A stretch of DNA of 37,914 nucleotides from Ectocarpus siliculosus (taxonomy: Eukaryota; Sar; Phaeophyceae; Ectocarpales; Ectocarpaceae). The DNA lies in NCBI GenBank assembly GCA_000310025.1, contig FN649747.1, forward strand, positions 1,915,758-1,953,671, written 5' to 3'. The number at the start of each line of letters is the position of its first letter. The stretch's first letter is position 1. Shown in pieces: positions 712 to 36,497 of this stretch. The translations under genes and the position numbers were made by a program. A model generated the notes under the pieces. The model was not told the DNA's origin, made no database searches, and saw only the letters and a program-made list of their open reading frames with translations.

Positions 712-3700
712 GGACGACTTGTCGTTGTACCGGAATGGCGTCCCCGACCTGATCGTGACCCTCATGCTGGTGTTGTTCGCCATGGCGTCGCGAAAGGCGG
801 AGAGTGTGGCGGTGGAGAGCATCGACACCGCGCAGCAGACGCCCCAGGATTATTCGGTAGGCTCTCTTGTTGTTCAAACTTTTTTTTCCTTGTTGCATCG
901 TTTCGGAGTGCCTTTTCCGTTCGCTGCGGTTCGTTGGCCTGTTCTTGTTGTCTCCAGTCTGTTGACGCGTCTCCCAGGCATCAACTCATCCCCCTTAGTA
1001 GGACGACACTACTGTTTTTGTACCCAAGAACGCAATACAGGTATGATCCACTCATTGTCTATTGACGATGTTGGGTGGCAAACACACACTTTTTTTGTAC
1101 CTCACAAACGCAAAACAGGGATGCATCCACCCGTAGTATATTTACAATGCTCCGTGGCAAACACGCAATTTGTTTGGTACACTACAAACGCGAAAAACAG
1201 GTATGCATCCACAGTCCGCCGAGAGCCCCCGGCCTGTCGGACCCCGACACCTACTACGAAAAATTTCGAGTCCACGGGGAGATCGCGTTCATCACCATTT
1301 GCCTAAGGAACGGAACTCTCTTGAAGGTGAGTGAGAGATCGACTGTGTTTGGGGGCGAGTTGTGTTCTGTAAAAGCAACGAATTGCGCGTGGTGAATAAC
1401 CAACGAGTTGCTCGTGATACATAAATGAAGTCTGTGTTTGGGGCCGGGCGAGGTCCATTTTCGGCGAGTGAGCCATGGACGCGTTGCTCATGATACATGA
1501 ACGACGTCGTGGGGGCGAACTACTCCGTATGCTTTTCTGTGGGCAGGGCCAATTTACCAGTTTTGCGCTTGAGTTTAGGCTGTGCTATCGTGGGCTTCTT
1601 TGTGCACCAGCGCACGCCCTTTCGTGCGGCGTTTGGATGTCGGAACACAGGTTCTGTGACGTGTTCACGCACACCCATGTAGAAGAGGACGTACTTGATG
1701 CTGCCCGTGCGCACGTTACCTCGCCTGGCGATGGGGTTGATTGTGAGCCTAGCATATCTACGATGGTGGTCGAGGTTTGGTCAGCGCTGGTACACTACCA
1801 CCCACCAACATCAACAACAACAACGACGACGACGCCGCGCTGGCTTGTGGGCATGTTGTGCTATCCTGTCCTTACATGTATACCCGCGAACGACATGGCA
1901 TCATGGGATGGCAGACGGTCGCGAAGAAACGCGTGTTGGAGCACAAGATGCACGCGCTGAACGCCCAGGCGGAGCTCGCGGAGAGGGAAGAAAACGTGGC
2001 CGGCGTGAGAATGGTGAGAGTGTGAGGTTTTTGTGTGGCTGTTTGCGCACAACCTGGCACAACATAACTGTTTTTTCTCTTCGCCGAACGATTACGGGGG
2101 GGCAGAAGACGAATTTTGATGTTGACTAATTTTGAAAACAAATGCAAGAGCACCAGAAATTGCACAACAGACACAGCAGACCGGTAGGAAGACACCGCGA
2201 AAAACAGAATCGTTGACTCTCGCACAGGGCGGCAGTAGAGGCTGCTCAAAACATACATTTCACGCGCCTACCTCCACACGCCTCCTTTGAAATCAATATA
2301 GAATCCACACTATTCTAAATTCTAGTCAATAGAGCCAAATCGGAAGGCGCTCAAACAAGGTCAATTTTGGGTGTTAGGTGTCGCATTCTATTGTCATCAG
2401 TACAGGACATCATGAAGAAGCGTCGTGCCTGCTGGCTAGTTCAGGTTTGCCACTGGAGCTGAAATATCGAAGGTCGCAGCAGCCTCTGAAAACAGTCCGA
2501 AATCTACGCCGGAACCAAGCGGCATCCAACATTTGTCACAGCCGTGCTCACCGCCACGGACCGTAAACCCCTAAACGGAGGTTGTCAGCAGTGGCTAGTG
2601 TACCAGCTACTGCTGTAAACCCGCAGTTCAGGAGATTGGGGTCAGTGGCAGCGAGCACGGCTGTGACAAATGTTGGATGCCGCTTGATTCTGGCTCAGGT
2701 TTCGGACTGTTTTCAGAGACTGCTGCGACGTTGGATATTTCAGCTCCAGTAGCAAACCTGGATGTACCAGCACGCACGACGCCTCTTCATGGTGTCCTCT
2801 CCTGATGACAAATAGAATGCGACACCTAACCCTGGCGAGAAGGTTGTTTACTTTCTTTGTATAGGAATAAAGTATGGGAAAAAGAGCCAGTGTCACAACC
2901 CCTTTTCTGCACCCCCTTAAACGGACGGCGATCTTCTTCACACAGGCAGCAACCTCTTAACTCCGTTTGCCATCACCGTGGCCCGTTGTCGGTGTAGCCG
3001 TAGCCTTGAGAGAGGCCAAAAACGTCTCGGTGCGGGACGGGGTCACGTATGTAGAACGAACGGCGACTCTGACGTGCTTTGCGTACAGCAGTGCGAGAGA
3101 GCCACTACCGGATCCGGGACAAACGGTGAACATTGTCGCCCCTGAACCAATAGTGAACCAACATTTACCCCTGGACCAACAGCAGTTACCTGAACCAGCA
3201 GTTAGTGCATGACGGCATGTTTTGCCACAATCGTAAGCCCTCTACCGGATCCGGATAAAAACCGTGAACACGTGTCACCCCTGGTTCAACAGTAGTGCAT
3301 GGAAACATCGGAATGTTTTGCCACAACCGTACGCCCACTACCGGATCGGGATAACAACCCCGAACACGTGGCATGGGAGCAGCGCAATACCACAACCGAA
3401 TTGGTTTTCCCGAACCCAATCCAATTCCCGAAGCCGAAACAGATTCCCGAATATTTCCCCGAACCCTCTAACGCACAACCGCTTAACCCTTGGAAGGCGA
3501 ATCGGACCACGGCCGACCTCAAGACGTTGCAGAGGAGTGGTTGAGCTAACCCGAGCCCTTACCATAAACCATAACCCTGAATCCGTGGTTCCGAACCAAT
3601 TCCCCGATCCGATCCGATCCCCGAACCGATCCCCGAACCCGCCAACAAACAACCCCTCTCAAAACCCCTTTGGAAGGCGAACCGGACCACGGCCGACCTC

Positions 3701-6700
3701 AAGGCGTGGCAGGCATGGCTGCAGGGCAAGCTGGGGCTGTTCCCCACGAAGGACTACCTCGAGAGGGCCCTGAAAGAGACGAGTGAGAGGCTGCGCGGCC
3801 TGACCCAGCGGCACTACGACCCGAAGCGGGTGTACATCACCTACCAGACCGAGCAGGCGCAGAGGAAGTGCCTGAAGGCCGTGGAGACAGGTACAAATTG
3901 GGTGTTTAGTCGCGGCAGGGTGGGGCACGGTCTGAAGGGTAAGGAAGGGTTAAGACGCTTCTGGTGGGTTTGTTTTTTCTGCGGAAGACTAGGCAGGGCG
4001 GGGCATGGTCTTGAGGGTAAGCAAGCGATATAACACGCTTCTAGTAGCGGGTTGTTTTTTTTTTTGCGGCAGGGTGAGGAAGGGGTGACACCCGTGTGGT
4101 GGGGTCAAGCGATGCAGGGGCGTGGTCGTAAGGGTAAGGAAGGGTTGAGACGCTTCTGGTGGGTTTGTTTTTATTGCGGAAGGCCACGCAGGGCGGGGCA
4201 TGGTCTTAAGTGAACGGAAGGGTTAGCACGCTTCTGACCGGGTAGTGCGAAAGAACTGGCTCGGGACGGCGACGGCGGGGGAATAGAAGACGGTTCGTTC
4301 CTGCTGTTCCCCTCGAGGGAGGAAGCGACGTTTTCGCCCTCTCGCGAGCCCGGCTCTCAGTAAGGCTGGATGATGTGATGGAAGCCCGTAGGAATCGTTT
4401 CTGGAGGGACAAGCACTTGTTCGAACCTGTGTCAGAATCCCGATTCTTTGTATCTTCTTGTCTCACGCGCAAGGCTTCTTGTAGAGCGTGTGGCTGTCTC
4501 TGTTGCTCGTCGACCGAGAATGTCGCGAACAACAGGTGAGTTTCTAGCGAGGTTTTTAGCTTCGTCGTCAACGGTGTCGTGCAACAGGCGGGCGGGAGAG
4601 AGCGGGCGCAACACTGCTGCGTTTCATCATTTTCGCAATACTCATCATCGTGTTCTTTTCTAAACACAGTCAACAAGAGGACGATGATGATCGTGATCAC
4701 GCGAAGGTCGCATCTTCGGCAAAGCCTTCAAGTGACGACATGCATGCCATGCCCAAGATTATGCCTGACCGATCGGCCGTGCACAACACCCACCCGTCAT
4801 GCAAGATATTGGGATAATCTCTGAAAGGATCTTGGGTCATCTTCTTGAAAATTATACTTCGCCACAAGGTTTTGGGTTGACGTATGAGAAAACTGCGGGC
4901 CACCTTTGCCTTTCCCCTATCTTGTGTGCTCTCACGAAAACAAGGTCTGTGGGAGGAATACGTGGCCAAGCTGACGGGGAAAGAAGTTAACCAGGAGGCC
5001 GTCATTGGCGGTTCCGTGTGCCGGATAGACGAAGCCGAAGAGCCGTCGGACGTGCTGTGGGAAAACATTGATGCCTCCATTGTGCAAAGGTATGCTCTGT
5101 GCCCGCCGGTGTGCGTTGTGTGATTTCGTGCGCCTCATGTGTGGCCCGCGCGCGCGGCCAATTCGACAGGTGAACGGTTTACACATTTTTTTTTTGTCAT
5201 CCCATTCTTCTGGGCGTTAGTTTTTGCACCTTTCGGTCATACAGGAGGAAGGCCGCACAGGAGATGCATCTTAAACCACAGAAGCGGAGTTTTTGTTGGT
5301 GTAGAAGCACGTCTACCTCCATATTCTCAAGTGATGTAGTCACAGACTCCGCTGGTAGTCTACCTCCATATTCCGAGGTGATATAGTCACAGAACCCCCT
5401 CGTAGTGTGTCTGAGGCAGTCGTCCTTGCCGCTGTCTGTGTTCCTGAAGACTTGCTACGGCTTTCAGCGTCAACACTGATACCTCTGTACGCCTTCTGTG
5501 TCAATGGTGTGAAGGGTGCGCTACACTCATTGGCTGGTAGAGGAATATTGACGCCTCCGTACCCCGGAAGACTCTCCTCGGATGGTATCTACAGTAGGTG
5601 TTGCTCTATACCACTGCTGTGTTTTGTCGGCCACATTTGTTCTGCCGGCGACACTTTTCGATCCCTAAGGCGTCGAAAATTAGCTTGGTTCAGTACTCCG
5701 GCAGCATTTTACGTTGTGAGCGGTATCAGCGTAGCTGCGCCCGTGGGTGTCAATGACTTTGCGCATTCATTTATGTGAGGCAAGTGTCTAACTCCGATTC
5801 CTGAGTTAATTGCTGCCAGTCAACCGCTACCACTCCCGGCATAACCCTGAGACGCCAACGAGCGAGCCACAACGGCCGGCGAGAGCTGCTGCCGTACCCT
5901 GCTCTAGAATTGGCGTTGGAACGGCACCTAGTAGTAGCAAACGAGCCGGCTTCTGCTAGAGAGAAACGAGCTGTACACGTGCAAGTGCTACCGAGCCGGA
6001 GAGCTAGAAGGACACAACGAGTGATAAAATTTTCGCTGCGAGCCACAGCTTCCTGCGAGCAAAGAGCCGCACAGTTGCAACGCGGGAACCCGAGCGCTGC
6101 TCTTGCCGCCGCTGCTGCTACGTGGGCGATGCTGCGATCTCTTTTTCAGGGGTCTTGCGCGAACGATTTTCTGACGGTGTTGTTTGCCGTCCCTGCCGAA
6201 CTGCTGTTGTTGTGGTGGCACCGGTGCTGGCGTGTTTTTTTTGCAGGGCGGCGACTTTCGCCCTGTCCGGGTTCCTCTCGGGCGCTTTCCTGGCGGGGAG
6301 CTTCTTCATCCTCAGGGCTATCTTCGAGGCTGGCTTCATCGCCGCCATATTCGTCGCTCTCGTCAATGCCCTGCTCCCCCTCGTCATCAGGGTCCTCACG
6401 CTCACCATAGGTCGGTCCGTTGATCTGTCTATCTCGGCCTTATTGCGGTACGATCAAGTGACTGACGCGCCAACGCCCTGCTCCCTCGTAATCAGGATTC
6501 TCACCCTCACCAACTAGGAAATATACCTCATACAACCAAGGGGAGGCTACCCGTTCGGGATATAACCACAGTCGAAGGGGATTGATTATCGCCTTTGTGG
6601 CGCCCCTTGTTGTCGTCGATTTGTCTATCTCAACCTTTTCGCGGTATGGTCAAAAATACTGACGCGGGGGAGAAGAGATGCCGCCTTTCGTGCTCATGTT

Positions 6701-9700
6701 TTAGTGTACAGTAGCTGCGTTGAAGAGGTGTCCATTATTTTCGTAGCTGCTTTGCTAAAGTGGCAGGCCTCGTTGTTGTTACTGCTCATGCTGATCAGCT
6801 GCGTTGAAAAGGTCTCTCCTCTTTTTTTCATTTCTTGGCTTGTTGGTATATATATGGTATATGGCAGGCCCCTCCTGTTGATCGATCGTTTGTCCTTCCG
6901 TCTCGCGTCCCGGCAGAGCAACACAAGAGCCTAACGCAGATGCAGGCGTCCATGATGTTCAAGCTCGTCACCGCCCGCGCCATCAACTCGGCCTTCCTGC
7001 TGTTCATCATCACGTCGGACGAGGAGCAGCTGGAATCCGACACGCTAACCAAGGTACGCACGCGTGACACCCGAAACGGTACTAATAAGTAACTACAGAC
7101 ACGGCATTGCGCCCGAAAAATGGTACTGCTACAACCAAGAACCCTGCAGTATGGTACGTATTCGGATGAAGCATTCCACCGCCGGAACCGGCATGAGAGC
7201 AACCGGCATCTACGGTGAGCACTCTGAATACCCTGTTGTCTAATCACCCCGCCTAACCCCCCGCCCCGTGCCTTTGCTGGTCTTGACGACACAAATTTTG
7301 TTCATTTGTTCGTTTATCTCGTGTGGTCGGCCGAACGGTGGTGTGGCATCAGATCCTCTCGATTCTGATCGCGGACGCCTTCACCGGGCCCCTCCTGAGG
7401 CTGACCAACCTGCCGGACCTGTTCGGTCGGAAGGTCATCGCCCCGAAGGCCAAGACGCAGGCAGAGATGAACGTGTTCTTCCAGGGGGCTCCGTGGAATC
7501 TGGCGGAGAGATACACGGACATGGTCAGTTGCGTACCCGTACCTCTGTAGGAAGAGGAAGCTCACTGTTGGACTGCTGCGGTTATTTTGTCTGGGGTAGT
7601 AGCCTTTCTGTGATTGTGTATGTATATTTTCTACCAAACAATCTGCGGAAAACGGCATTCGGTGGGTTTTGCCCGGACGGTGTGCTTGTGGTGCTTATGT
7701 TTATGACGATCATGTATTGATGTTGCGACGGCACAGGCCGTGAATAGAGTACGGCGCAGGCCGTGAATAGATCACGCACACGATAACTCCAACGGCTTGC
7801 TGCGTGCTACAATATGGAGCCAGTCGTCTACAGCAGTACATTGCACCAACAAACTTAATGGATACAAACGGCTTATGCTTTTTGTCTTGTGCTGCGTCGC
7901 CGAACCTCCTGTGGGAAAAACTAACGGCCGAATGCTTGAACAACCACGCCGGCGGGGGAGGCAGATCAAGACGGTTTTCGTCGGCCTCTTCTACTCGGCC
8001 ATCGTGCCCACGGGGCTCATCGTGACGGCCGTGGCCATGATGATGCTCTACTGGGTCGACAAGTACTCCCTGCTCAGGCTGTGGAGGAGACCGCCGGTGA
8101 GTGTTGCGAAAAATCCCGCCAAAAGAGTGACGGTACGGTAAAACAACAACGGCCATGGTAAATCAACAACACCTCTCTCTTTCTTGACCGGATCTACGCC
8201 ACGCTCCACGTGTGTTTTAACGATTGGGTTGGCGGGGGGGATGCTCCGGCAGCGCCGAAGGGCGTGCGTCTTCGGGAACACTTTTTTTTTGTCGGCGTTT
8301 CCGACGCAGAAGTCTGACCTCTGCACGATGCCATCCGTGAAATTGATCAAAGGGTCGGGGGGGTGTACGGGTACTGCTGTACTACGGTTGTTTTTTGCTG
8401 CTGCCTATGCCGTTATTTGATTTTGGCGGTGCATTGCTTTATCTCAATTTTTCGGCGTCCATGGCGTCTAGTGGCTGCTGTGTGGAAGACGGCGCATCCG
8501 GTCCTATCGCATCTGTTGCTGTTAGTGTTAGTTGCTTCCGTTCTAATACTGTTTGCCGCCCCCCCTCCGAGAGCCATCGGGGTTAGGTTTTCGTCGCTTG
8601 GCAATAACATTGGCAAACACGCCGATCGCTTCGTGAGCTTGACAACCCGGTTACCGGTTTTCTTTTTCCTCTCTTTCTTTTCTTGCGGTATCCATGATGG
8701 CGGTCGAATAGATCATGTTGTGGAGGGTCGAGAACCGTCACTCCGCGCGAAGGGGATTATCGCACTACGTTGTGTTCAATTGGTCAAACGCCTTTGAGGT
8801 AGTTACACAGTGCTCATAACTGCTGTCTCTGGAAGCGAAAGCACCAGAAAATAAATTAATTCATTTGCAATTGTCCTCCGTATGCAAGGAAGTAAGCACA
8901 AGATGCCGAACACCCTTAGCAGGATGCAGCGCACCCTCCATGCGACTCGCCGAATACCTCACGGCGCTTCGCGTTTGGTGATGTGGGAGCCCGGTCCGGT
9001 GAGAACCGGGCGTGCTCCGTCCCGGCTTTGTAGGGATGCGAGGTCAATGGTCTAACGACTACGGCATGCACGACTATGACTACACCCCCACCCCCACCCC
9101 CGCGTTTGCCCGGCAGGCTTACGATGCGCGGTTATCGAGCTACAGCCGCAAGTACGTTGTCCTGTGCATCTGGCTGCACCTCGTCATGGCGAGGATTTTC
9201 TTCGCAAAGTGAGTCACGACCTATCGAGTCAGCCTATCATATCGCTGCTGTAAACCGCTCCAAAAAGACAGGAAGTGGTGGTTACATTTTACAACGATGT
9301 ATATGTTCGTGCAACATTTGTGTTGTTGTTGCCTTAGGCTTGGAGTCGGATTACAGCAGAGTCTCGTCCACTCAGCGTGCTGGTGATGCCTTGACGTGAG
9401 AAACTGTTCTCCACTGTTTGAAGTCGTACCCCCTGTACTCCGTAACCTCAATGGCGAGTCAGAAACAAACTCCCGCCGTCACAAGCTCTTACCCAAATTC
9501 AGGCACGAATCTGTATGCACAAAGGGACCGATCGGGCGGGAGTGATGGCACTCACATTACGTTTGTCGTCGCGCAACTTGCTGTTTTTTGCGGCTCGTTC
9601 ATAGTCGTTCCGTTCCGTTTCACTCCGTTCGGTTTCGTTCCGTTCCGTTCCATTCCATTTCATTCCATTCCGTTCCATTCCATTCCGTTCCGTTCCGGTC

Positions 9701-12648: not shown

Positions 12649-12685
<37 letters not shown>

Positions 12686-15600
12686 CACATGTTGTTATTG
12701 TGAATGTTCACATTAACAACTATTCCGGTCCCTGCTCAGTACCTTCTAGGACCCGTGCCGGTTCAACTGACTCAGGACGCTTTCCGTGTTCACATATGCA
12801 TACTGCAGCAGGTTTTTAACGTACGAGGTTTACGCTTGGAAAAATCCAAACGAAAAGAAAAACGATGCGCGCATGCAGGGCACATAATAATTTTCTCCAA
12901 CAAGTAGCGTTTCTCAAGCCGCCACCGACAACGGGTTTGTTCGGAAACCTTTCAGCATGACGTGCCCGGAATTGCCAACCACTCGTTGCGTTGTGGAGAA
13001 AAGGGAGGTACGGTACGCAACGGAAGCCGGTCGCAGGGAAGAAAGAGTAAACACTGGCCGAGCGATGCGTTTCATCCTTCGTTGCAATCATGTCGACAAG
13101 ACGTTCATGTCCCTGTGTGTCAAAAGAGAGCGCTTGCTTGCTTAACGTCCCGTAGCGGTCTTCCCCCGCTGCTTTGACGTAAGGCTTGCTGCAGTTTACC
13201 TAGAAAGAGCGCTCACGACTTTGGATGTTATGAATTCATTGCCAACTCTTGACCCGTTTCACATGCACCCACCCACCACCCACCCCCACCCCCGCCGTTG
13301 CCCTTGCGGTGCCCCTATCGCCGTGTTTTTTTCTCGTAACTCTGTTTTAAATCTTTTTTCAGCGCGCACCCGTTCCTTCCGCTACGAATAGGAGGATTTT
13401 ACAGCGCGGAGGAGCTGAGCATGAGCAGCGACAAAGACTTCCCCGACATTCCGAAGGTATCCACACTTTCACTCGGATGTTTTTTTTTTATCCATAGGGG
13501 CGGGGGTGGTGGTGGTTGTTTGGGTAGTGACTCAAAAGACGCGGTCAAATAGAATGGTTGTGGCCGAGTGCAAAGGTTTGCTCAGTGTGTCAGGCTTCCG
13601 CAGGACACGGCGGGAGTACGCTGCCCCCCCCCGCCCCCCGCCCCCCATGTCTATTTGGAGTATTGTTCGTGCCAAACGTTTTTCCCCCCTTCCATCCGCG
13701 TAGAAGATAATACATTTGTTCTTGTACGCTTTTCGGGCGGCGGCAACCGTTTGCCTCTCTCGCGTTGGCGTGTTTCGAAGTGGCATGGTTACACTTGATC
13801 GAATGCTCGTTGTGATCATTACCGCTTTTTTCCATGTGACATAGGTTCACTCGATTGATTCAACTGAACCTACATACCTCGTTATTTGTTTTTCAGCGAG
13901 AACGAGATGAGCTGTTCAGCAAGGTCCGGTACTACCCCGGGCCGAGGGAAAAAATTCAACAGGCGACCAAGAATGCAGGCATCCTCTACACGGTGAGAGA
14001 CAACAGCAGTCGGTTCGCCTTCCTTCATGACAAATTGTGAAAATGAGGATAAAGGTTTATTGCCTCTTATTGTTTGTGCAATAAGAGTGAAATTGTTCGA
14101 AGAATCGTCGGGGAAAGGGTTCCGCGGCCATTCCGGGTCAATCAGAATTTTTTGTCGATTTTTTCAGGGTTGTTCACGAAGCGTTTTCTTTTTTCACGGA
14201 GGGAAGCGGTTTACGACATGAACAAAAGAACGCTCCGCTCCGTGAGAACTTTGCCCTCGGATAAATCGCTCCGCTCCGTGGGAATTCCCAAGAATCCGTA
14301 CATGCGTTTTTTTCACGGAGCGTTAGAGCTACTCCGTCCGTCACACAACCGCGGATAAAACGGCAACACAGTCACGGTTTTCCTACGGAGTCACAGTTGT
14401 TTTGCCACGGAGTCACGATATTTTGTGTTGGGAAGGCTAACGCTCTGCATCTGTCCAAGCCGCTCGTGCGGGAGAGCAAGTGGTTGTCGAGGTCGAATCT
14501 GGCTGAGTGAAATAGGGGGCGTATTTGGTTGAATGCATGAGACGCCTGGTGTTACCAAGTGCTATTATAGTTTCAACGAGAGGAAATGAATATTTGTCGA
14601 ATATTCTGCTGTTGTACGTACGTGTTGCAGGAACGTATGACTCGAGGAGATATCGATGTGGGGAACAGTGCCTTCCTCGATAATCGATTGGTTGATTGAT
14701 TGATAGCTTTTTGGTCCGTTTGGGTTGTCCTGGCGGCGAGGACGCGTACGGTGTCACCGGCGGCCTCCAAGCACCGCACACCTTGCGGAACAATCGGTTT
14801 TCGGTGTACCAAACCCAACGTATTTCACGAACTTGCAGGTAGTCCGTCGATTTGTACGGATAATATCCGTGTGCGGTTTCGGCGTGTCTTCTGACGGTAC
14901 ATCGTCCTCAACACCACGACTTCGCGCGATTTATGCTACGGAGCAAACAAAAATGCTCCGTGCCATGAAAAAAAAACGATCCGTTCCGTGAGACTTGCCC
15001 TCGGATAGACGGCTACGCACCACTCCGTGATAGTTTCAAATAATTAAAAAATGCTCCGCGGAGCGGTTCTACTCCGTGAACGACCCTGGATTATTTTTTG
15101 AGATGTTTTCCCCTCAAAAGTGCGTCGTGTCAACCCAGTTTCAACGCCATGCAAAGGTTCAAGGATCGCTAAAACGTCAGACCGGAAGTTCGAGGTCGTC
15201 GGATTGTCTACACGAACATGGATACGAGAAGTACTTTGATTTCTCTGTGGTCATTGTTAAAAAAATGTGGCACATACCACATATACTTAGGACCAAGCAA
15301 ACCACGACTCTGCTCGAGGAAGCAAACAACCAAGTGGTGGACCAATAACTGGCTCGAGGGGGGGGGTCCTTGGTGCCAAACAAGCAGGAACCCAATGCGG
15401 CAGTCTAGTGGTCTAAAGGGGGCCTTCTCGGATCGAGTTATTTAGTCCCCATTTTCGAAACGAGCTTATATTCTCGCGCAGAGGAAGTGCACGACGAGCG
15501 ATTGAAGGACGAACGTTTGGAAAACCTTACAGCGCAGTGTCAGGTGCACCCCACCATCTTTGGCGTAGGAATGCGACCCACGCCCACACAATCGAGCCTT

Positions 15601-18600
15601 TTTGTGACATCACGACGAGCTCAAGCCGCATTGGCGCCGGCAACGACCTCTTTACCTACCAACACAACTCCCTCACATTTCTTCCATCGTGCTCCAAACG
15701 TTTGCAGCACATACAACGTGCTCCAAGTTTTTCTAGAATGTAAACACGTACCTTTGAGGGATACAAGTAGTCTTCTGGAACCGTGAGACGGGTCATGCCG
15801 ATGCCGTGCAGCATACAGCAGGATAGCATACAATTGTACCTAACAGACGAGAGGGATATGCGGCGTAAAATTTACACACCGCGGACGATATCAGCACCAG
15901 TGCACGACGTTCGGGTCAAAATTGAAGGCAACCTTGGCTTGTCCTCGGCTTGTCCTCGTCAACCTCGGCTTATCCTCAGCAACCTCGGCTTATCCTCGGC
16001 TTATCCTCTGCTAATCCTCGTCGCCTCGACTTGCCCTCGACTTAACCTCGGCTTAACCTCGGCTTGTCGTCGACTTGACCTCGAAACCTCGACTTGTCCT
16101 CAGGTTGTCCTCGGCTTGTCGTTGGCTTTTCCTCGGCAACCTCGGCTTAACCCTCGGCAACCTCGGCTTAACCCTCGGCAACCTCGGCTTATCCTCGACT
16201 TATGCACAGCAACCTCGGCTTTTCCTCGGCTTAAACCTCGACTTAACCTTGACTTGTCCTCGACTATACCTCGGCTTATCCTCAGCAATGTCGGTTTAAC
16301 CTAGGCTTATCCTCAGATCCTCAGCAACCTCGGCTTATCCTCGGCTTATCCTTGGCTTATCCTCAGCAACCTCGACTTATCCTAGACTTATCCTAGGCTT
16401 ACCCTCAGCAACCTCGGCTTATCCTCAGCATACTCGGCTTAACCTCCGCCTATCCTTAGCAACCTCGGCTTACCCTCAGGAACTTCGACTTAACTTCGGC
16501 TTATCCTCGGCAACCGCCGCTTGTCCTCGGATTCTCCGCGGCTTCTCCTCGGCTTCTCCTCGGCAACTCGGCTTGTCCTCGGCTTATCCTCAACACCCTC
16601 GGCTTGTCCTCGACTCAACTTCGGCTTATCCTCAGCAACCTCGGCTTGCCCTCGACTTTACCTCGGCTTTATCCTTGGCAACCTCGGGGTATGGTATCCT
16701 TGGCATCTTCGGCTGAACCTCGGCTTATCCTCAGCTTATCCTCGACTTACGCTCAGCAACCTCGGCTTTTCCTCGGCTTGTCCTCGGCTTAACCTCGACT
16801 GAGCCTTGGCTTGTCCTCGACTTTACCTCGGCTTATCCTCGGCGTATCCTCGGCGTATCCTCGGCTTATCCTAGGCTTACCCTCAGCAACCTCGGCTTAT
16901 CCTCAGCATACTCGACTTAATCTCCGCTTATCCTCAGCAACCTCGGCTTATCCTCAGGAACTTCGGCTTAACTTCGGCTTATCCTCGGCAACCTCCCCTT
17001 GTCCTCGGCTTCTCCGCGGATTCTCCTCGGCTTATCTTCGGCAACTCGGCTTATCCTCGGCTTATCCTCGGCTTATCCTCAACACCCTCCGCTTGTCCTC
17101 GACTACAATTCGGCTTATCAGCAACCTCGGCTTGTCCTCGACTTTCCTCGGCTTATCCTCGGCAACCTCAGCTTAACCTCGGCTTATCCTCAGCAACTTT
17201 GGCTTAATCTCGGCTTATCCTCGGCAACCTCCGCTTATCCTCGGCCTATCGTCGGCTTAACCTCGGCTTATCCTCAGCAACTTTGGCTTAATCTCGGCTT
17301 ATCCTCGGCAACCTCCGCTTATCCTCGGCCTATCGTCGGCTTAACCTCGGCTTATCCTCAGCAACCTCGGCTTATCCTCGGCAACTTCGGCATAACCTCG
17401 GCTTATCCTCGGTAACTTCCGCTTATCCTCGGCTTATCCTCAGCAACCTCGGCTTATCCTCGGCTTTTCCTCGGCTTATCCTTGGCTTATCCTCAACAAC
17501 CTCGGCTTGTCCTCGACTCAACTTCGGCTTATCCTCAGCAACCTCGGCTTGTCCTCGACTTTACCTCGGCTTATCCTCAGCAACCTCGGCGTATCCTTGG
17601 CATCTTCGGCTGAACCTCGACTTATCCTCGGCATCTTCGGCTTATCCTCAGCAACCTCGGCTGAACTTCGGCTTATCCTGGGCAACTCGGCAACCTCGGC
17701 TTATCCTCGGCATTCTCGGCTGAACCTCGGCTTATCCTCGGCAACTTAGGCTTGTCCTCGGCTTTACCTTGGCTTTTCCTCAGCAACCTCGGCTTGTCCT
17801 GGGCTTTTCCTCAACAACCTCGGCTTGTCCTCGATTTCCCTTCGGTTTATCCTCAGCAACTCGGCTTGTCCTCGACTTTACCACGGCTTATCCTCGGCAA
17901 CTTCGGCTTTACCTCGGCTTATCCTTGGCATCCTCGGCTTGTCCTGGACTCATCCTCGGCAACCTCGGCTTACCCTCGGCTTATCCTCGGCATCGTCGGC
18001 TTATCCTCAACAACCTCGTCTTGTCCTCAGCTTAACCTCGGCTTATCCTCAGCAACCTCGGCTTGTCCTCGGCTTGTCCTCGGCTTATCCACGTCTTGTC
18101 CTCAGCAACCTCGGCTTGTCCTCGGCTTATCCTCAGCAACTTCGGCTTAACCTTGGCTTATCCTCGGCTGTCAGCAACCTCGGCTTATCCTCGACTTAAC
18201 CTCGGCTTGACCTCGGCGTGTCCTTGGCTCATCCTCGGCAACCTCGGCTTAACCTTGGCTTATCCTCGGCTTATCCTCAGCAACCTCGGGTTATCCTAGA
18301 CTTAACCTCAGCTTAACTTCGGCTTATCCTCGGCAACCTCGGCTTATCCTCAGCAACCTCGGCTTATCCTTGGCTTAACCTCGACTTGTCCTCGGCTTAT
18401 CCTTGGCTTAACCTCGGCTTGTCCTCGGCTTATCCTTGGCTTAACCTCGTCTTATCCGTGATTTCTGTCATGGTTCCAGTTGCTATCATTGCGCTACATG
18501 AGAGAACATGGACGAATCGGCATTTTTATGTGATCATGCGTTAGGTGTTTTGTACCAGAGCGAGAGGCTCGAAACTTGCCAAACAACGGGAAAACGGTCA

Positions 18601-21600
18601 GTTGGTGGGTGCTCAAAGCCGAATTTTATGTTCGACAAAGAGGACACATCTCTGAATCCTCCTCGCCATAACTACATACACGTATGCGCTAAGCACCACA
18701 AACAAAAGTAGGAGAGAAAGTGAACTCCAGTGTGGCTTTTTTGTATTTACGGGTCGTGCCGCTTCTAGCATTGGCAAGGGAAAAATCGAAATTATTACTT
18801 GACTGAGACGCGAACGCACACCCCTACGCTACCCGGTGCAATGTGCCATGGCTCGGTTTGTTGGCACTCGTGTGAATAGTCCGCGAGCGGTTTCGAATGA
18901 GCTGACGCGCACTGACTCTCTTGATTCCCTGTATGCGCTGCTGTGCGTCTCTGTTGTCGGGCTCAACTATCACAAAGGATATACGTTCGTACGGTTGTAA
19001 GATTGCGATTCGCCGCAGCTTGTGTCGGTTCACTTGTGCCTGTTCCCTTGTGACGTTCTTCTCTCGTGTATGTTGTTCTTGTTCCGGATCCCGGACCGTC
19101 CAGGCCACAAGCGTCGACCAGACACCGGCGGGGGCCGGCGACATCGACGGACGCTTCGGCCTGGCAAGACAAGGGTCGTCGGTAAGAGATGCATCTGTCT
19201 GCTGAGGGCTGACCTCGTGTGGCCCGTCCCTTGGTTCTCTTCGGTTTCCCTTTTTTTTTATTAGTCAGCTTTCCATTGTTGCTGCTGCAACGCTGACCGT
19301 TTCTTTGCGCGATGTATGGATAAGATAGTCGTCCCTCTGGAATCGTGCCTGGGTGTCGCTGATGGTCACACCCGCGGGAAGGACCTCAATTGTCACGCTC
19401 CTGGGAAATACCTGGTAGAGCGGGGTTCCGCGCCGCGAATTTCTCTGCTTCTTGGTGGAGGTGTGCAAGTTTGCGAGACGTGCATGCTTTGTCAAACAAC
19501 AAAAAAAGCTTCCACTGATCGGTCATTGATGGCCAAACGAGGCTGTTGTGGGCGAGGTTTGTGGACGAGCCTACTTCGTAGGGCCAAGCGAAGCTTGAAC
19601 CCAAACCAACCAAAACGGTCCGGCGTGGGGTTAAGGAAAACAGAGGAGGGGGAAGGTTGTTGTTGTTCCCCATATATGGAGGCAAGCGGGAAGAGAACCG
19701 TTGGATACGGTTCTTGCTAGCGAAGATGATGATGATCATCATCATCGTCCTTTTCGTGCTCTGATGCGCCAGTCGTGGTGGTGCTCTGCGTTCGCCCTCC
19801 CTCTATTCCTATCGTGCTTTGCTCCCCTCTCCCACCATCCAGGCCGGCGGCGCGTTCATTCTACCCGCCGGCCCCGTGGAGGAGTCGCGGGCGCCTCAGC
19901 GCTCTCGCCGCAACGACTCGCGGGTGACGGAGGCGGCGCAGGTAAAGCATTGCGAGGCCAGAATACAGAAACAACGGCAACGTTGTCCGCCGGCGTCCTT
20001 CAAGTAGTACGGTACGGGCCGGGGGATAAGAAACTCGTCAAGATCGGGTCGAGGCTCAGTTTTTTTCCTTCGTCGCCACCGTCGACCACAGATTGTTATA
20101 TGGTATGGTATATTTTAGTGGTAGAACCCACGGCTGAGGTAGGTGTGTTCCTTACCCATTCTTGTTATTTTTCGTGAAAGTATGGGCCTCTGTTTCGTAA
20201 CAAAATACACTCCTATTTGCTTAACTGCGGGCCCGTATTGTAATGTAAGTGCCGAGTGTTGTAGTAGACCCGATTTTTTTCGTTTCAAAGGCTCGATTTT
20301 TCTCCATCCACAACCAAGAAAGAGTCTCGTCGAGAGGGAGCTTTTCCTCACGCGTGTTGCTCGATTTCTCGCACCCTGTTGTTTGTGGAGGCAGCCGAGT
20401 CGGTCTCGGCGCCTCGCGCACCCCACGTACGGTATGTATTGCCCTTGTATGCGGGGCATATATATTTATGCCGCTGCGGAAGGTTGGGCAGCGCGGATCA
20501 GATTCCGACCACTCACATCGTCGTACTTTCTGTCGCTTAACGCATCAGACCACCACTGTTATTTTTCGGCCGTGTCCCTTGCTTCATCGTCTCGACAATA
20601 CACACATGACAACGAAACATCACGACGAAACGTTTCGACGAAAACGTCACGACGAAACGACACGACGAAACATCACCATGATGAAACGTCACCATGAGAC
20701 GTCACCACGACAAAACGTCACTACGAAAACGTTACGACGAAACGACACGACGAAACGTCCCGATGAAACGTCACGACGAAACGTCACGATGAAACGTCAC
20801 GATGAATCGTCACCACGACGAAACGTCAACACGAAACGTCACGATCAAACGTCATCACGATGATGAAACGTCACCACGAAACGTCACCACGAAACGTCAC
20901 GCATTCACACGTCGGAGGCTGGATCGGAACGCGTGCCTGTACGTGTATATACACAGAATCCGCTGCCGTCCGGGTGGGAGGAGCGCGCCACGGCCAACGG
21001 GCGGCCGTACTACGTGTGCCACCACACAAGGACAACGCAGGTACTGCACTTCACCGAACTGCACTGCACTGCACCGCACTGTACTGTACTGCAAGCGGCC
21101 TGTCTTCCTGTCTTGTTGCTGTACCACACTCTATTGTACATGTAATGTGCGGTGGGTTCTGTCCTTCCGAAATAACCTCTTCCTCTCTGCTCCGGGGGCC
21201 ATCACACCAGACCCGCTCCGGTAGACAGGGGAAGCTTGAGATATATGTCCGGTGTAGCGTGTTTCGCCGCACATTTACTGTTGGGGCGGAATAACTAGCT
21301 CTTTGCCACGGTTGGCTGCGTTTTTTTTTCTTTGCCGCGCGTGCATACTTTTAAGTGGGCTCATTTGCGTGTAAATACAGGAGCGTGGATGCTGATTGTT
21401 TGCTGCAATATAACTGGGCACAACTTCGGCGTTTCCTTTATTATCTCGTTGGTTGTCCACACCTGACCGTTGTTGCTGCGCAAGCCCTTCACCGGTCCCA
21501 CGCGGCCGTGAGCTGTATTGTCCACCGTGCTACTCTATCGAATGGAACAGCGTGTCGCTTTGGGAAGATGCACTGCTGATGCCCTGTTGTTTTAGTCCTT

Positions 21601-24361
21601 CGAACCTTGGAAGACAACGAGTTACATGACTCCACAAGTGAGGGAATCCCAAGGAGGGAGGAAAGAACAACAAGCAGAGAACCTTCCCCCCCCTTCTCCC
21701 TTCCCCTCTGTCGGCCCCCCTGGAACGATTGGTGGTGTGAACGACCAACCACCTCCACTACTGAACCATTTCGGAAGAGGAGAAAAAGAGCAACAACATC
21801 ACCCCCCCCCCCCCCCCCTCCCTTCCCCTCTGTCGGTACCCCTGGAACGATTTGGCAGTGGGAACGACCAACCACCGCCGTGCCGACATCTTCCCGGGGC
21901 TTCCAAGGCATGCCCACCAATGGGGGAGCCATTCCGGACATACATGGCGCCGTCAGGGACCTACCGCCGGGCTGGGAGGTCAAGTGAGTCGAGCCACTAA
22001 GAGACGGCGTAAATTTCAGTGTAACCGGCATCACGAACCGCAACAACCTTTTGGCATATCTCGCCGCAGGTCAAGCGAGTCGAGCCACTAAGAGACGGCA
22101 TAAATTTCAGTAACCGGCATCACGAACCGCAACAACCGTTTGGCGTATCTCGCCGCAGGAGGTCAAGCGAGTCAAGCCACTAAACGGTGTAAAATAGTAC
22201 AGTCGTGGCTCCGATATCAGAGTGTACCTTGTAGGAGGAGGCAGAGGGTCGAAATCTGTCGTGACGGACTCGACCCGCTACAGTATAGTATAGTTGGGTA
22301 ACTTATGAAAGGGGCCCCGATATGAAAGAGGGTCAAAGGCCTTTGTCACACCACCCTCTCATATCGGAGGCACGAGTGTAACCGGAATCACGGACCGCAA
22401 CAACATTTTGGCATCGCAACACGCATGCGGACATGGCCAAGGGGCGACGAGAGCCTCTTTTTGGTTGTTGTTGCTGCTTGGACGGCCGTGTGAATGTGTG
22501 GCACTTTCATCGCCATTCTGCTCGCGGGGTCGCAACCTTTTTGTATCGCCACGCATGCCTTTCGACGAAGGTCTCAATTTTGTTGTTGCCGCTCAGACCG
22601 CCGTGTGAAAGTGTGGACACTTGCCGCCGTGTTTCGTTGTGCATCCTGTCTTCAGAAGCATCCCGAGAGTGCGGCTGCGCGTACGCGAAAGGAGTTGGAC
22701 TGATGGTGTTGCCTTGCAATCCGTATTGGTGCAGCATTTTCGACTGCTTTTCTTGCCCGACTCGCTGGTGTGTGCTTGTGTCAAGTACTTGAACCACCCA
22801 GGCGCCCACCACGATTTCATGGCCACTTGAGTATTGTGCCGTCGAAGTCGCTCTGAGTCACGTGCTTCAACGCTTGCCCTTGTCACTGTGAAAACTCACC
22901 TACCTGTGCGTTTCGGAATCCCCCGAAGCGTCGTACATCGAGGCGTGGATTATGAGTGTGCCTCAATCGTGACGATTCATTCATTCCACGGTCGAGCCTC
23001 AGATTCTCCGATAATCCATGGGAGGCACCGACCGCACCTTGCCAAAGGGAAGGATATCAGAGAGCTGTCCCCCCTTCAGCGGCACGGGGTTCCCACACAA
23101 CCAATATTCGGAAAAGCACACGCACCTTTCCACGGCGGTGCCTCGCCCCCTGCTGCTGCTGTCGCCCGAAGGGTGCTCATTTGGGTTCCTCTTTTTTTTT
23201 TTTGGGGTTCCCCCCTTTTTTTTTTGTGAACAGGTACTCCCCGGATGGCCGACCCTACTACGTGGATCACAACCACCAAGTCACGACGTGGGAGCACCCG
23301 ATCCCCTCGGGGAGACCGGGGGTGCAGCAAGGCTCGGCGGCCGCGGCGGGGGGAGCAAATCCGATTGATCAAACAGAAGGAGGCTCCACGGTATGTGTCC
23401 TGTGGGGTGACGAGTGAGACATACAGATTGGGAGCTGGGAAGGGGAGTCACCCTTCTCGGAGTGAAAGCGTCGGGTCGTTCGGACCCCCACGAATAAATA
23501 GCTTTTTTTCGAAGCCGAAATTAAACGAGTGTCAGTTTTGGCTCGTAATGACCTCGCCGTTATCCGCGGGCGAGATGTGGTACAACGTGGCGTTCGTTTG
23601 TTTACGTATAGTTTTCGTTGCAGAGTGTGTTGTTTTAAGCTGTTCCACTCGCCCCGCGCTCACTGTACCGCTCAAGCGTACTTATCCATCCCGGGTGCAT
23701 GTTCTCACAACCCCCCTTTCGCCCTCTTCCCCCCCCCCCCCCCCCCGCTTGCCAGTTCCTGGAGCAGTACACCGCTGCCGGCCTACGGTTCTTCGTCAAC
23801 CCCAAGACGAACGCCGCCAGGTGGTCCCCTCCCAAGTCACGCCGCCGTCGCGACAGCCGTACGTCCAGCGACGCCGCTGCCGCCAGAAGCGCAGGCGCCG
23901 GTGCCGGTGACGGCTTGGACGAGAGCCTTTCGAGCACGTCCAGGGGCGGGGGCAGGGCCGCGGGCCTCCCGCGGGGCTGGGAGAAGAGGACCACCCCTGC
24001 GGGGCGCGAGTACTTCGTCAACCACGACCTCAGGATCACGCAGTGGGCCCCGCCTGAGGGGGCGGCTGGTGAGCAGAAGGTACCGTACCCTGGTGGTAGT
24101 GCTGCTACTCACCGAGCGGCGTCGCCAACCGCACCGTTTGTCCCGCCCACCGCGGCGGCGGCGGGCTTGGGTGGGTTTGTGCCGCTGCAACCGCCTCCGG
24201 CCCCGGTCTTTGCCGGCGGAGCGGCGGCGGCGGCGGGGGTTGGCGAGGGTGGCCTGCCGGGGTACATCGAGGTCCGGACGCACGCGGACGGGCGGACGTA
24301 CTACGTCAACCACCGCACGAAAGTGACGTCGTGGGTGCCTCCGCCGAGAGAAGACTGGTAG
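712..24361 (+). CDS. OSCA/TMEM63 (CSC1-like) mechanosensitive cation channel with C-terminal WW-domain array, 5' partial
   Basis: Spliced gene. Exons: 712-856, 1201-1326, 1915-2013, 3677-3890, 4945-5089, 5245-5298, 6247-6410, 6917-7053, 7353-7523, 7965-8096, 9117-9208, 9795-9903, 10822-10920, 12317-12441, 13363-13456, 13897-13992, 15484-15543, 19104-19181, 19843-19941, 20957-21040, 21859-21983, 23234-23390, 23756-24361. Phases match at every junction and give 1069 visible residues ending in TAG. Family marks are DYSV with an SPP turn at the start of the cytosolic domain, VLWENI, RYTDM just before the TM pair, and VDKYSLLRLW after it. OSCA/TMEM63 proteins are stretch- or osmotically gated cation channels of plasma or internal membranes. 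The N-terminal membrane helices lie outside the window or are unrecognised. The WW tail is joined by phase-0 introns; a separate WW gene starting after 13992 cannot be excluded. The exons at 5245 and 15484 are the least certain. Confidence 0.85.
1010..1215 (+). repeat. Three tandem copies of an exon 2 acceptor unit (about 80 bp)
   Basis: Three diverged units share tttgtacc, aacgcaa-acag, gtatgcatccac and ggcaaacac. The third unit ends at the real exon 2 acceptor (acag/GTATGC at 1201) and includes the first 12 exon bases. Confidence 0.8.
2373..2830. repeat. Foldback (inverted-repeat) element in intron 3
   Basis: Two arms of about 190 bp in opposite orientation: left 2373-2561, right 2641-2830, with an 80-bp spacer. 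Both arms carry TTAGGTGTCGCATTCTAT at the outer end and ACAAATGTTGGATGCCGCTT (or its complement) at the inner end. No open frame spans it. It resembles a non-autonomous foldback or MITE-like transposon; a flanking target duplication is not obvious. Its transcript would form a long hairpin within the channel pre-mRNA. Confidence 0.85.
3098..3372 (+). repeat. Tandem minisatellite, about 3 units, intron 3
   Basis: Three diverged units carry ctaccggatc, gggataa and gtgaacacg at about 3098, 3240 and 3333. The last two also share atgttttgccacaa-cgta. Only intronic sequence is involved. Confidence 0.7.
3420..3715 (+). repeat. 180-bp tandem duplication containing the start of exon 4
   Basis: The segment tggaaggcga-ccggaccacggccgacctcaag occurs at 3491 and again at 3671, 180 bp apart, with similar CCCGAAC-rich sequence before it. 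The downstream copy is the start of exon 4. The upstream copy runs into a stop after about 16 codons, so it is a decayed partial exon copy. Confidence 0.8.
3905..4245 (+). repeat. Minisatellite of about 85-bp units, intron 4
   Basis: About four units share gcagggcggggcatggtct, agggtaaggaagggtt, cacgcttct and tgggtttgtttt. It lies just inside intron 4 after the exon 4 donor at 3890. Units contain GGGTAAGG, which looks like a splice donor, but nothing indicates use. Confidence 0.8.
5315..5400 (+). repeat. Two-copy direct repeat, intron 6
   Basis: gtctacctccatattc followed by tgat-tagtcacaga occurs twice in succession (about 5310 and 5358). Nothing else is seen in the remaining 0.9 kb of this intron. 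Confidence 0.6.
8558..9104 (+). repeat. C-bounded dispersed repeat, copy A (intron 10)
   Basis: A 547-bp element bounded by C-tracts on both sides. Shared landmarks with copies B and C are ggttttcgtcg, gtcgaatagatcatgttgtg, cactccgcgc, aaagcaccagaaaa, gcaaggaagtaagcac, cttagcaggatgcag, cctcacggcgcttcgcg, cgtgctccgtcccggct and ggtcaatggtctaacgacta, then gactatgactac and poly-C. It ends 12 bp before exon 11, so its terminal C-tract forms the pyrimidine tract of that acceptor. It has no terminal inverted repeat, A-tail or significant protein. The class is unknown. Confidence 0.85.
9606..9698 (+). repeat. Pentanucleotide array (TTCCR)n, intron 11
   Basis: About 18 near-perfect units of TTCCG, TTCCA and variants. 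It is simple-sequence repeat with no coding role. Confidence 0.9.
9915..10230 (+). repeat. Minisatellite of about 90-110-bp units, intron 12
   Basis: Three units share gccgc-acgcatggcctgttg, tcgtacatggtcgaaattt and ggcatggacacgtcac. It begins about 10 bp after the exon 12 donor. Confidence 0.8.
10425..10595 (+). repeat. Minisatellite of about 27-bp units, intron 12
   Basis: Five to six units resemble tccaagatgctccacccttg. It is separate from the arrays on either side. Confidence 0.8.
10624..10821 (+). repeat. 97-bp tandem duplication ending at the exon 13 acceptor
   Basis: Two near-identical units run from cgcgtcgatt through ggcgtgaagcgtcggttgcc, ccttcaaagtgcccgccta and cccatcggctgttccgtt. 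The start of a third unit provides the tttcgcag acceptor of exon 13 (10822). Confidence 0.85.
11711..12275 (+). repeat. C-bounded dispersed repeat, copy B (intron 13)
   Basis: A 565-bp element in the same orientation as copy A, starting with 15 C and ending with 17 C after actatgagta. It contains the 9-bp stem GTGCTTTCA / TGAAAGCAC and all the landmarks of copy A. It ends 41 bp before exon 14. An open frame across it (11806-12156) is conserved only in parts between copies and is not considered a gene. Confidence 0.85.
12317..13992 (+). other. Exons 14-16: cytosolic tail just after the last membrane helix
   Basis: Exon 14 reads through a conserved-looking stretch with GIDAYIPLI and TDPLIGMD. 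Exon 15 has HPFLPLR followed by a Ser/Glu/Asp-rich segment. Exon 16 is charged (RERDELF, then YYPGPRE). The Y-I/V-P-L-I and D-P-L-I pattern after the last helix is typical of protist members of the family (from memory). Junction phases are 2 and 0. The acceptors of exons 15 and 16 have strong T-rich tracts ending in TTTTCAG. A duplicated 12-14 bp stretch does not occur at these junctions, unlike others in the gene. Confidence 0.8.
12600..12690 (+). repeat. (TTG)n/(CTG)n microsatellite, intron 14
   Basis: Interrupted trinucleotide tract, mostly TTG with CTG and GGC variants. Confidence 0.9.
14215..15075. repeat. Scattered ACGGAG/CTCCGT motif cluster, intron 16
   Basis: The motif CTCCGTGAGA with TTGCCCTCGGATA occurs at about 14240 and 14985, and single copies of gctccg, ctccgt and the complement acggag recur between them (for example ccacggagtcac near 14410). 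The spacing is irregular. It looks like a decayed or interspersed repeat, not a gene. Confidence 0.6.
15484..19941 (+). other. Exons 17-19: hydrophilic linker between channel and WW domains
   Basis: Three short phase-0 exons. Exon 17 (15484-15543) is 20 residues, highly charged, likely helical; its acceptor could be 2 bases upstream but only 15484 keeps the frame. Exon 18 (19104-19181) is Gly/Ala/Asp-rich. Exon 19 (19843-19941) is Arg/Ser/Pro-rich (RAPQRSRRND). None has a recognisable domain. They are assigned here because each has a good acceptor, a GT donor (gtgcac, gtaaga, gtaaag), an open frame and matching phase between the channel and the WW exons. Exon 17 and exon 18 are separated by the large minisatellite at 15928-18458. 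Confidence 0.55.
15928..18458 (+). repeat. 2.5-kb mosaic minisatellite of 9- and 11-bp units, intron 17
   Basis: The tract is built almost wholly from an 11-mer (CCTCGGCTTAT and variants) and a 9-mer (CCTCGGCAA or CCTCAGCAA), often paired to make 20 bp. Because 9, 11 and 20 shift the frame, open frames of 60-170 codons occur in several plus-strand frames, all Ser/Leu/Ala/Pro-rich. These are by-products of the repeat. It sits inside the intron between exons 17 and 18 of the channel gene. Confidence 0.95.
20607..20901 (+). repeat. Short-unit array (CACGACGAAACGT-like), intron 19
   Basis: About 25 units of 10-13 bp based on ACGAAACGTCAC, with CACGATGA variants. It ends 55 bp before the first WW exon. 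Confidence 0.9.
21690..21875 (+). repeat. 120-bp tandem duplication containing the start of WW exon 21
   Basis: cccctctgtcgg followed by cccctggaacgatt and gaacgaccaaccacc occurs at 21704 and 21824. The downstream copy holds the real acceptor (tttggcag/TGGGAACG). In the upstream copy the AG is lost (attggtggtgtgaacg), so it cannot be used in the same way. A 17-C tract separates them. Confidence 0.8.
21977..22195 (+). repeat. 91-bp tandem repeat copying the exon 21 donor
   Basis: Two full and one partial unit start with aggtcaa at 21977, 22068 and 22160. The first is the real donor of exon 21 (AA/gtgagt at 21984). In the later copies the donor reads gcgagt and each is preceded by tctcgccgcag, an acceptor-like sequence. 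A further weak copy of the unit centre (accg-aatcacg-accgcaacaac) lies at 22380. Confidence 0.85.
22317..22368. repeat. Small hairpin, intron 21
   Basis: Inverted arms ccgatatgaaagagggt and accctctcatatcgg enclose a loop that contains the palindrome caaaggcctttg. Confidence 0.8.
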
Positions 24362-35940: not shown

Positions 35941-36497
35941 CGTTGCACGCCCCTCTTGTCTCTCTCTTGCTTGGTGTGTTCTGAAAGCAACCACGGCGCA
36001 CGAAAGATATTTCAGGGGGGTTCGCACATGTGTGTTATTTCGAGTCCCCCCCCCACTCCTCTTGGCGCAGGGGGCATCATCGCACTTTCGGCGTCTGTTC
36101 TGCGGCCCAATCCCCAGTGCGGTGCAGAGGAGAAATCCAGCCACAGCGCTGGACAAAACAGAAGGAGAGGTCTAAAACGCATTCCAGAGAGGGGCGCGCA
36201 CGCAGTGATGGCGGCAAACAACAGGGGGGGTGACGCCCAAATTGGGTTCCAAAAGATTTTTCTCGGGGAGGTGAGACGCCGCCGACTCGCTTTTATCCCG
36301 ACGCGCACACCGGTATGCATACCTTTTTTTGTGTCCTCTCGCTGGCGAGATTGGATAGCGTAGCTACGTCGTGTTGCCCAGTGGCTGGTGCAGTGCCGGT
36401 CCTTCTCCTGCTACAGCAGCGCTGGCACACGGCACCTGCCGTTGTGCTTTCGTTGTTGTGAGCGTTGGCAGGCTGCTGCTGCTCCGCCATCCATGCA

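Follow-up and report, generated by a model that had tools for sequence, protein, structure and literature searches.

A candidate fused gene joining a divergent TMEM63/OSCA-like channel and a WW-domain array in Ectocarpus siliculosus

The window analysed here is a stretch of 37,914 bases on contig FN649747.1 of Ectocarpus siliculosus. It carries two blocks of exons, head to tail and both on the + strand, with channel-type exons at 712-13992 and WW exons at 20957-24361. We asked whether the two blocks form one gene that encodes a channel with a WW-domain tail, or two neighbouring genes. The original prediction had read them as an OSCA/TMEM63-type channel fused to a tail of five WW domains, in 23 exons with matching phases and with neither a stop nor a start between the blocks. 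On the sequence evidence, one fused channel-WW gene was the better reading, and we put its probability at about 65%.

The exon chain was rebuilt from splice signals and reading frame. It comprised 21 exons, not 23, at 712-24361 on the + strand, and encoded 1022 residues followed by a stop. A single frame was open across all junctions of this model, without internal stop, to the TAG at 24359-24361, which bore out the predicted matching of exon phases through E1-E21. The start of E2 was placed at 1201 because phase with E1 must hold, and the donor of E11 was of the GC type (GAG/gcgagt). Thus both blocks, their strand and the open frame stood, while the exon count and the absence of any start or stop did not. 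The features were as follows.

712-856, + strand: E1, first readable channel exon, with a hydrophobic stretch at 734-790; aligns with an exon of the C6 paralog
1201-1326, + strand: E2, start of the cytosolic (PHM7_cyt-like) domain, in phase with E1
1915-2013, + strand: E3, cytosolic domain (exon model)
3704-3890, + strand: E4, cytosolic domain (exon model)
4945-5089, + strand: E5, end of the cytosolic domain, with an EEPSDVLWEN motif ahead of the next helix (exon model, paralog alignment)
6247-6410, + strand: E6, two hydrophobic stretches (hydropathy scan)
6917-7053, + strand: E7, hydrophobic stretch (hydropathy scan)
7353-7523, + strand: E8, RSN1_7TM region (Pfam)
7965-8096, + strand: E9, RSN1_7TM region (Pfam); a PPAY motif lies across E9/E10
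9117-9208, + strand: E10, loop after PPAY and a hydrophobic stretch (hydropathy scan)
9795-9903, + strand: E11, loop exon with the GC donor
10822-10920, + strand: E12, final hydrophobic stretch (hydropathy scan)
12317-12441, + strand: E13, conserved tail (IDAYIP...; paralog alignment)
13363-13456, + strand: E14, conserved tail (paralog alignment)
13897-13992, + strand: E15, conserved tail (YYPGP) and a phase-0 donor scoring 8.2 (paralog alignment)
15932-18457, no strand: minisatellite, 11-base unit CCTCGGCTTAT in about 241 copies, within the proposed 5111-base intron
19104-19181, + strand: E16, candidate linker exon, phase 0/0, without Met (exon scoring)
19843-19941, + strand: E17, candidate linker exon, phase 0/0, without Met (exon scoring)
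20957-21040, + strand: E18, first part of WW1, with a weak acceptor (-1.6)
21859-21983, + strand: E19, end of WW1 and start of WW2
23234-23390, + strand: E20, end of WW2
23756-24361, + strand: E21, WW3 (degenerate, 23756-23833), WW4 (23966-24055), WW5 (24254-24343) and the stop

The true start of the channel gene was unreadable because the 8,000 bases immediately upstream of the window were all N. The gene may begin upstream of 712, and a short, phase-compatible start exon at 564-580 is possible. Near the paralog on contig C6, an earlier open frame with an additional hydrophobic stretch was seen by eye, which suggested an upstream start for the window gene too. Base skew, taken as a sign of transcription, was inconsistent along the gene.

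Several other elements were observed in the window. Intron 3 of the channel gene held a hairpin at 2497-2705 that matched Rfam MIR8622 (RF04141) with 199.4 bits against a cut-off of 197. An intronic microRNA gene at this place was rejected, since a genome search gave 37 scored matches among 13,091 first-look candidates, and the hairpin behaves like a dispersed hairpin or palindromic repeat. The MIR8622 family presumably comes from Ectocarpus. Passages from PMC4513859 and PMC9322779 gave no indication of this origin. Three similar stretches of about 550 bases (around 8550-9080, 11730-12260 and 27560-28180, by eye) formed an interspersed repeat, each ending in a near-identical run around gcgaggtcaatggtctaacgactacggcatgcacgactatga. 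On the - strand, a 322-codon open frame at 30695-31663 resembled, by eye, the last part of a copia-type retrotransposon polyprotein; Pfam gave no match for it at E <= 0.01.

The identity of the first block was borderline by Pfam. RSN1_7TM matched the window protein with E 1.7e-6 and 28.1 bits against a cut-off of 28.7 (profile 145-252 of 274), and PHM7_cyt with E 0.003 and 18.2 bits against a cut-off of 27 (profile 20-174 of 174). Anoctamin (PF04547) reached 16.3 bits, below its cut-off of 28, and the RSN1_7TM match was the stronger one. The hydropathy scan gave eight hydrophobic peaks, all within E1-E12. A phmmer search of the PDB with the window channel protein returned 0 matches at E <= 1. 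A profile of three paralogs retrieved four PDB sequences at E <= 10, none of them significant, namely anoctamin-6 (1.5) and CSC1-like protein 2 three times (4.5, 4.5 and 7.6). NCBIfam gave no match for the channel part. The predicted OSCA/TMEM63-type call was favoured by the domain order and by the RSN1_7TM E value, but it missed both Pfam cut-offs. These results suggested placing the first block, as a divergent TMEM63/OSCA-like protein, in the TMEM16/TMEM63 group, in which we take the OSCA/TMEM63 and anoctamin/TMEM16 families to be one superfamily. Like the OSCA/TMEM63 proteins (CSC1-like; PF02714 and PF14703), the window protein appears to have a cytosolic domain, an EPxDxxWEN-type motif and a 7TM block in the same order. 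It differs from them in lying under both curated cut-offs and in its extra conserved C-terminal tail, which is followed by the WW array. Its likeness to the anoctamins consisted of weak matches, 16.3 bits for the window protein and 21 bits for the paralog on contig C2, both under the cut-off of 28. OSCA/TMEM63 proteins carry the N-terminal helices TM0-TM2; on the N-terminal side of the window protein one hydrophobic stretch (E1) was readable, ahead of which the DNA was N.

We then compared the block with its paralogs, which were searched exon by exon in the 189-Mb, 492-contig genome, a procedure by which weak matches may be missed. The channel protein found near relatives at C2:1727k and C6:778-783k, with alignment identities of 33% and 24%, and weaker ones on contigs C16 and C157. 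Taken alone, the C2 paralog matched Anoctamin with 21 bits and the C6 paralog RSN1_7TM with 18.6 bits, both below cut-off. Beyond the last helix, the C2, C6 and window proteins shared a tail (E13-E15) that was about 105 residues long and reached to a YPP/YYPGP motif. The expectation that little should follow the last helix in such channels therefore did not fit this subfamily, where C2 and C6 keep the conserved tail. Outside these relatives, 151 viral and 94 genome-contig pattern matches were obtained in two collections that hold no algae, and tblastn confirmed none of them.

The second block was clear as a whole. Pfam WW gave five stretches at E <= 1, with a whole-protein E of 4e-45 and 151.9 bits, over the cut-off. 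In the exon-wise genome search WW1, WW2, WW4 and WW5 were over the WW cut-off, and WW3 was absent at E <= 0.1. The first Trp was missing in WW3 and WW5. By the usual rules for WW domains, the His of the PPxY pocket is kept in WW1, WW2, WW4 and WW5 but not in WW3. The predicted tail of five WW domains was thus supported in four clear domains, while WW3 was degenerate. WW1 was split across E18/E19 and WW2 across E19/E20; because each straddles an exon junction, E18-E20 form one unit. Among the best 60 of 113 PDB matches, the closest to WW1, WW2 and WW4 were NEDD4-family domains, NEDD4L and ITCH, and this NEDD4/ITCH-like character makes PPxY ligands likely for these three domains. The window protein resembles the NEDD4/ITCH WW arrays in these closest solved structures, but differs in having neither a HECT nor a C2 domain among its 5 Pfam families at E <= 1. 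Across the genome, WW-like exons gave 110 matches at E <= 0.1, the four of the window included, with clusters on C15 (1688-1696 kb), C3 (5115-5137 kb) and C16 (7176-7183 kb).

The question therefore turned on the gap 13992-20957. The intron that would join E15 to E16 was 5111 bases long, whereas the other 19 introns had a mean length of 814 bases. About half of this joining intron was the minisatellite of about 2.5 kb. A second tandem repeat lay at 20612-20901, just ahead of E18. The rest of the gap held E16 and E17, which were scored with a codon and splice-site model built from the window gene and the C2 paralog (1471 codons, 26 donors, 29 acceptors). The model is small and takes about two thirds of its codons from the window gene itself; E16 and E17 were left out of training. 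The training set kept one doubtful C2 exon, and the C2 exon at 6288-6393, whose phase was unresolved, was left out. The model recovered 8 of 9 known exons in 5100-13996 exactly and overlapped the ninth, a check that is not independent as these exons were training members. Since it considers no donors other than GT, it does not place the end of E11, which has a GC donor, exactly.

In their own frame E16 scored 11.4 bits as coding (0.44 per codon) and E17 15.4 bits (0.47 per codon), where the channel exons gave 0.19-0.70 bits per codon. With total scores of 29.5 and 20.8, E17 ranked first and E16 second of the 380 internal candidates of phase 0/0 in 13993-20956, and they kept these ranks among 3486 candidates of any phase. 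When the gap was shuffled 200 times, the best candidate reached the E16 score in 1/200 cases and the E17 score in 0/200. Shuffles of local composition (19001-20000, n=300) reached the E16 score in 7/300 and the E17 score in 0/300. The best real negatives scored 15.1 on the reverse strand of the gap and 20.1 on the forward strand of 24420-36000. E17 was clear of these negatives, and E16 lay at the noise limit. The acceptors of E16 (3.3) and E18 (-1.6) fell under the training range of 3.4 to 11.4, the donor of E15 was strong (8.2), and E16, E17 and E18 contained no Met. E16 and E17 had coding character, and they look like true coding exons in the phase that a joined transcript would need.

An alternative is that the blocks are two neighbouring genes. 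The channel gene would then stop either at the TGA of 14038-14040 or within a small terminal exon. The WW domains would belong to a gene of their own, whose first exon, short or largely untranslated, would lie at about 14041-19104. Unspliced at 13992, E15 ran on for 15 codons to that TGA, so the claim of no stop between the blocks was too strong. The frame of the C6 paralog, too, continued directly into a TGA at the corresponding site, shortly past its YPP motif, and because of both observations the channel could simply end at 14038-14040. The length of the 5.1-kb gap, which far exceeds the other introns, and the abundance of WW-like exons in the genome (the 110 matches at E <= 0.1) also favoured separate genes. 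Against an end of the channel there stood the strong E15 donor and the best phase-0 terminal exon, which reached just 6.9 bits.

Starts for a separate WW gene were present in the gap, but none was good. From an ATG at 18933 the frame ran open into E16, and the stretch scored -46 bits as coding. Five in-phase ATG first exons with a donor of at least 3.9 were found at 14041-19100, one of them at 18628-18681. They were tiny or low-scoring, all with <= 6.4 bits, and the best three had 4, 18 and 5 codons with 6.4, 2.6 and 1.8 bits. The best of 159 ATG first-exon candidates in the whole gap scored 8.8 bits (20468-20482, five codons) and would skip E16 and E17. A short separate first exon for the WW block is possible. 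The predicted absence of a start was accordingly too strict, although no good separate start was found. On balance, we regarded two genes as unlikely, but as a reading that keeps real weight.

The paralogs gave a mixed picture of the same region. The C2 paralog had a donor-like GTGAGC site whose phase matched the end of E15 and whose position came close to it. In the 9.6 kb that follow, no exon candidate scored above 16.5. A WW-free last exon proposed for this paralog was open in phase, but its codon score of -21 bits marked it as non-coding, and it was dropped as support; this is the doubtful C2 exon that the training set contained. The C6 paralog had a donor-like site slightly earlier, after its YPP motif, with strong coding-like exons downstream. 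These Q/P/G-rich exons lay at 9979-10117 in L003, and at 11023-11480 and 11766-12318 in L003+L004, with scores of 35, 71 and 127, which low complexity may inflate. The first of them joined in phase only via the acceptor at 9978 (L003), not via the best-scored one at 9973. They could encode a long disordered tail or be part of the gene that follows. The C6 channel protein may therefore continue beyond the conserved tail, and these exons lend weak support to long variable tails in the family. The channel-WW order itself was not found elsewhere in this genome, with no WW match within 50 kb of any RSN1_7TM, PHM7_cyt or protein match listed outside the window; the nearest WW to a channel match on one contig was about 51 kb away, on C157. 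The fusion was thus favoured by the open frame and the linker exons, while the long joining intron and the lack of a second copy in the genome spoke against it.

It is also conceivable that both products are made: alternative splicing or polyadenylation within the long intron would give either a short channel that stops at 14038-14040 (TGA) or a longer protein that includes the WW tail. A read-through stop and a strong donor coexist at 13992/13993, and long repeat-bearing introns can favour early transcript ends. We considered this highly improbable. The slimmest chance of all was given to an assembly artefact, in which unrelated loci would have been misjoined over the 2.5-kb minisatellite at 15932-18457. 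Wrong assembly joins can occur at arrays of short repeats, and a 29-base piece of the CCTCGGCTTAT minisatellite also occurred on contigs C9 and C30. However, 5 of the 7 exact genome matches of this piece were at the present locus, the window contained no run of N, and the phase agreed across the join.

In the preferred reading, one gene would encode a divergent TMEM63/OSCA-like membrane channel. Its C-terminus would lie in the cytosol and lead from the conserved tail of about 105 residues through a linker to the WW array, with four clear domains and one degenerate domain. This would depend on splicing across 13992-19104, which we infer from the phase and the candidate exons. Topology and gating are drawn from what is known of OSCA/TMEM63 proteins. 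By analogy with family members, the putative channel part would most likely be opened by bilayer tension or osmotic change. On the cytosolic side of the channel, the WW array would most likely serve as a docking place for partners with PPxY motifs. Such docking could fix the channel's position or recruit effectors, and we infer that membrane tension might in this way be coupled to proline-motif partners, as had been proposed.

The protein's own sequence offered one possible ligand. Its only PPxY was PPAY, at residues 434-437 across E9/E10, in a loop between the last helices that we take to be cytosolic by homology, from the topology of the family. A PPxY occurred at least once in 303 of 2000 shuffled window proteins. 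The loop was readable in five proteins, of which the window protein had PPAY and the C16 protein PPQY, and those on C2, C6 and C157 had no PPxY; in five further loci the loop was unreadable. The WW array might act as a built-in clasp on the channel's own PPAY, released by tension or by competing PPxY partners, so that gating would be set by the channel's own proline reader. By itself the PPAY motif was weak evidence for such a clasp, and we rated the idea as a long shot.

We searched for known systems of this kind. In the open-access papers searched, no OSCA/TMEM63 protein with WW domains was found, and no mention of RSN1_7TM together with a WW domain. In PMC11085791 the OSCA sequences of diatoms fall into four clades, next to brown algal sequences, and a term count of its text gave no occurrence of 'WW domain'. 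The nearest precedent appeared to be a WW-tailed membrane calpain; PMC10762896 reports, for Ectocarpus and oomycetes, calpains that combine a membrane part with a WW domain at the C-terminus. The type 3 membrane-anchored calpain resembles the window protein as a stramenopile multi-span membrane protein with a C-terminal WW. It differs in having one WW domain, where the window protein has five WW stretches. The window protein in turn had neither a C2 domain nor the CysPc calpain protease domain among its 5 Pfam families at E <= 1.

Should the joined transcript prove real, it would represent a type of tension-sensing channel with its own multivalent docking tail. It would belong to a lineage, probably the brown algae, in which complex bodies and walls arose separately from those of plants and animals. 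It would stand in parallel to the WW-tailed membrane calpains described from the same wider group in PMC10762896, and it would tie a channel to PPxY partners in a concrete way that can be tested.
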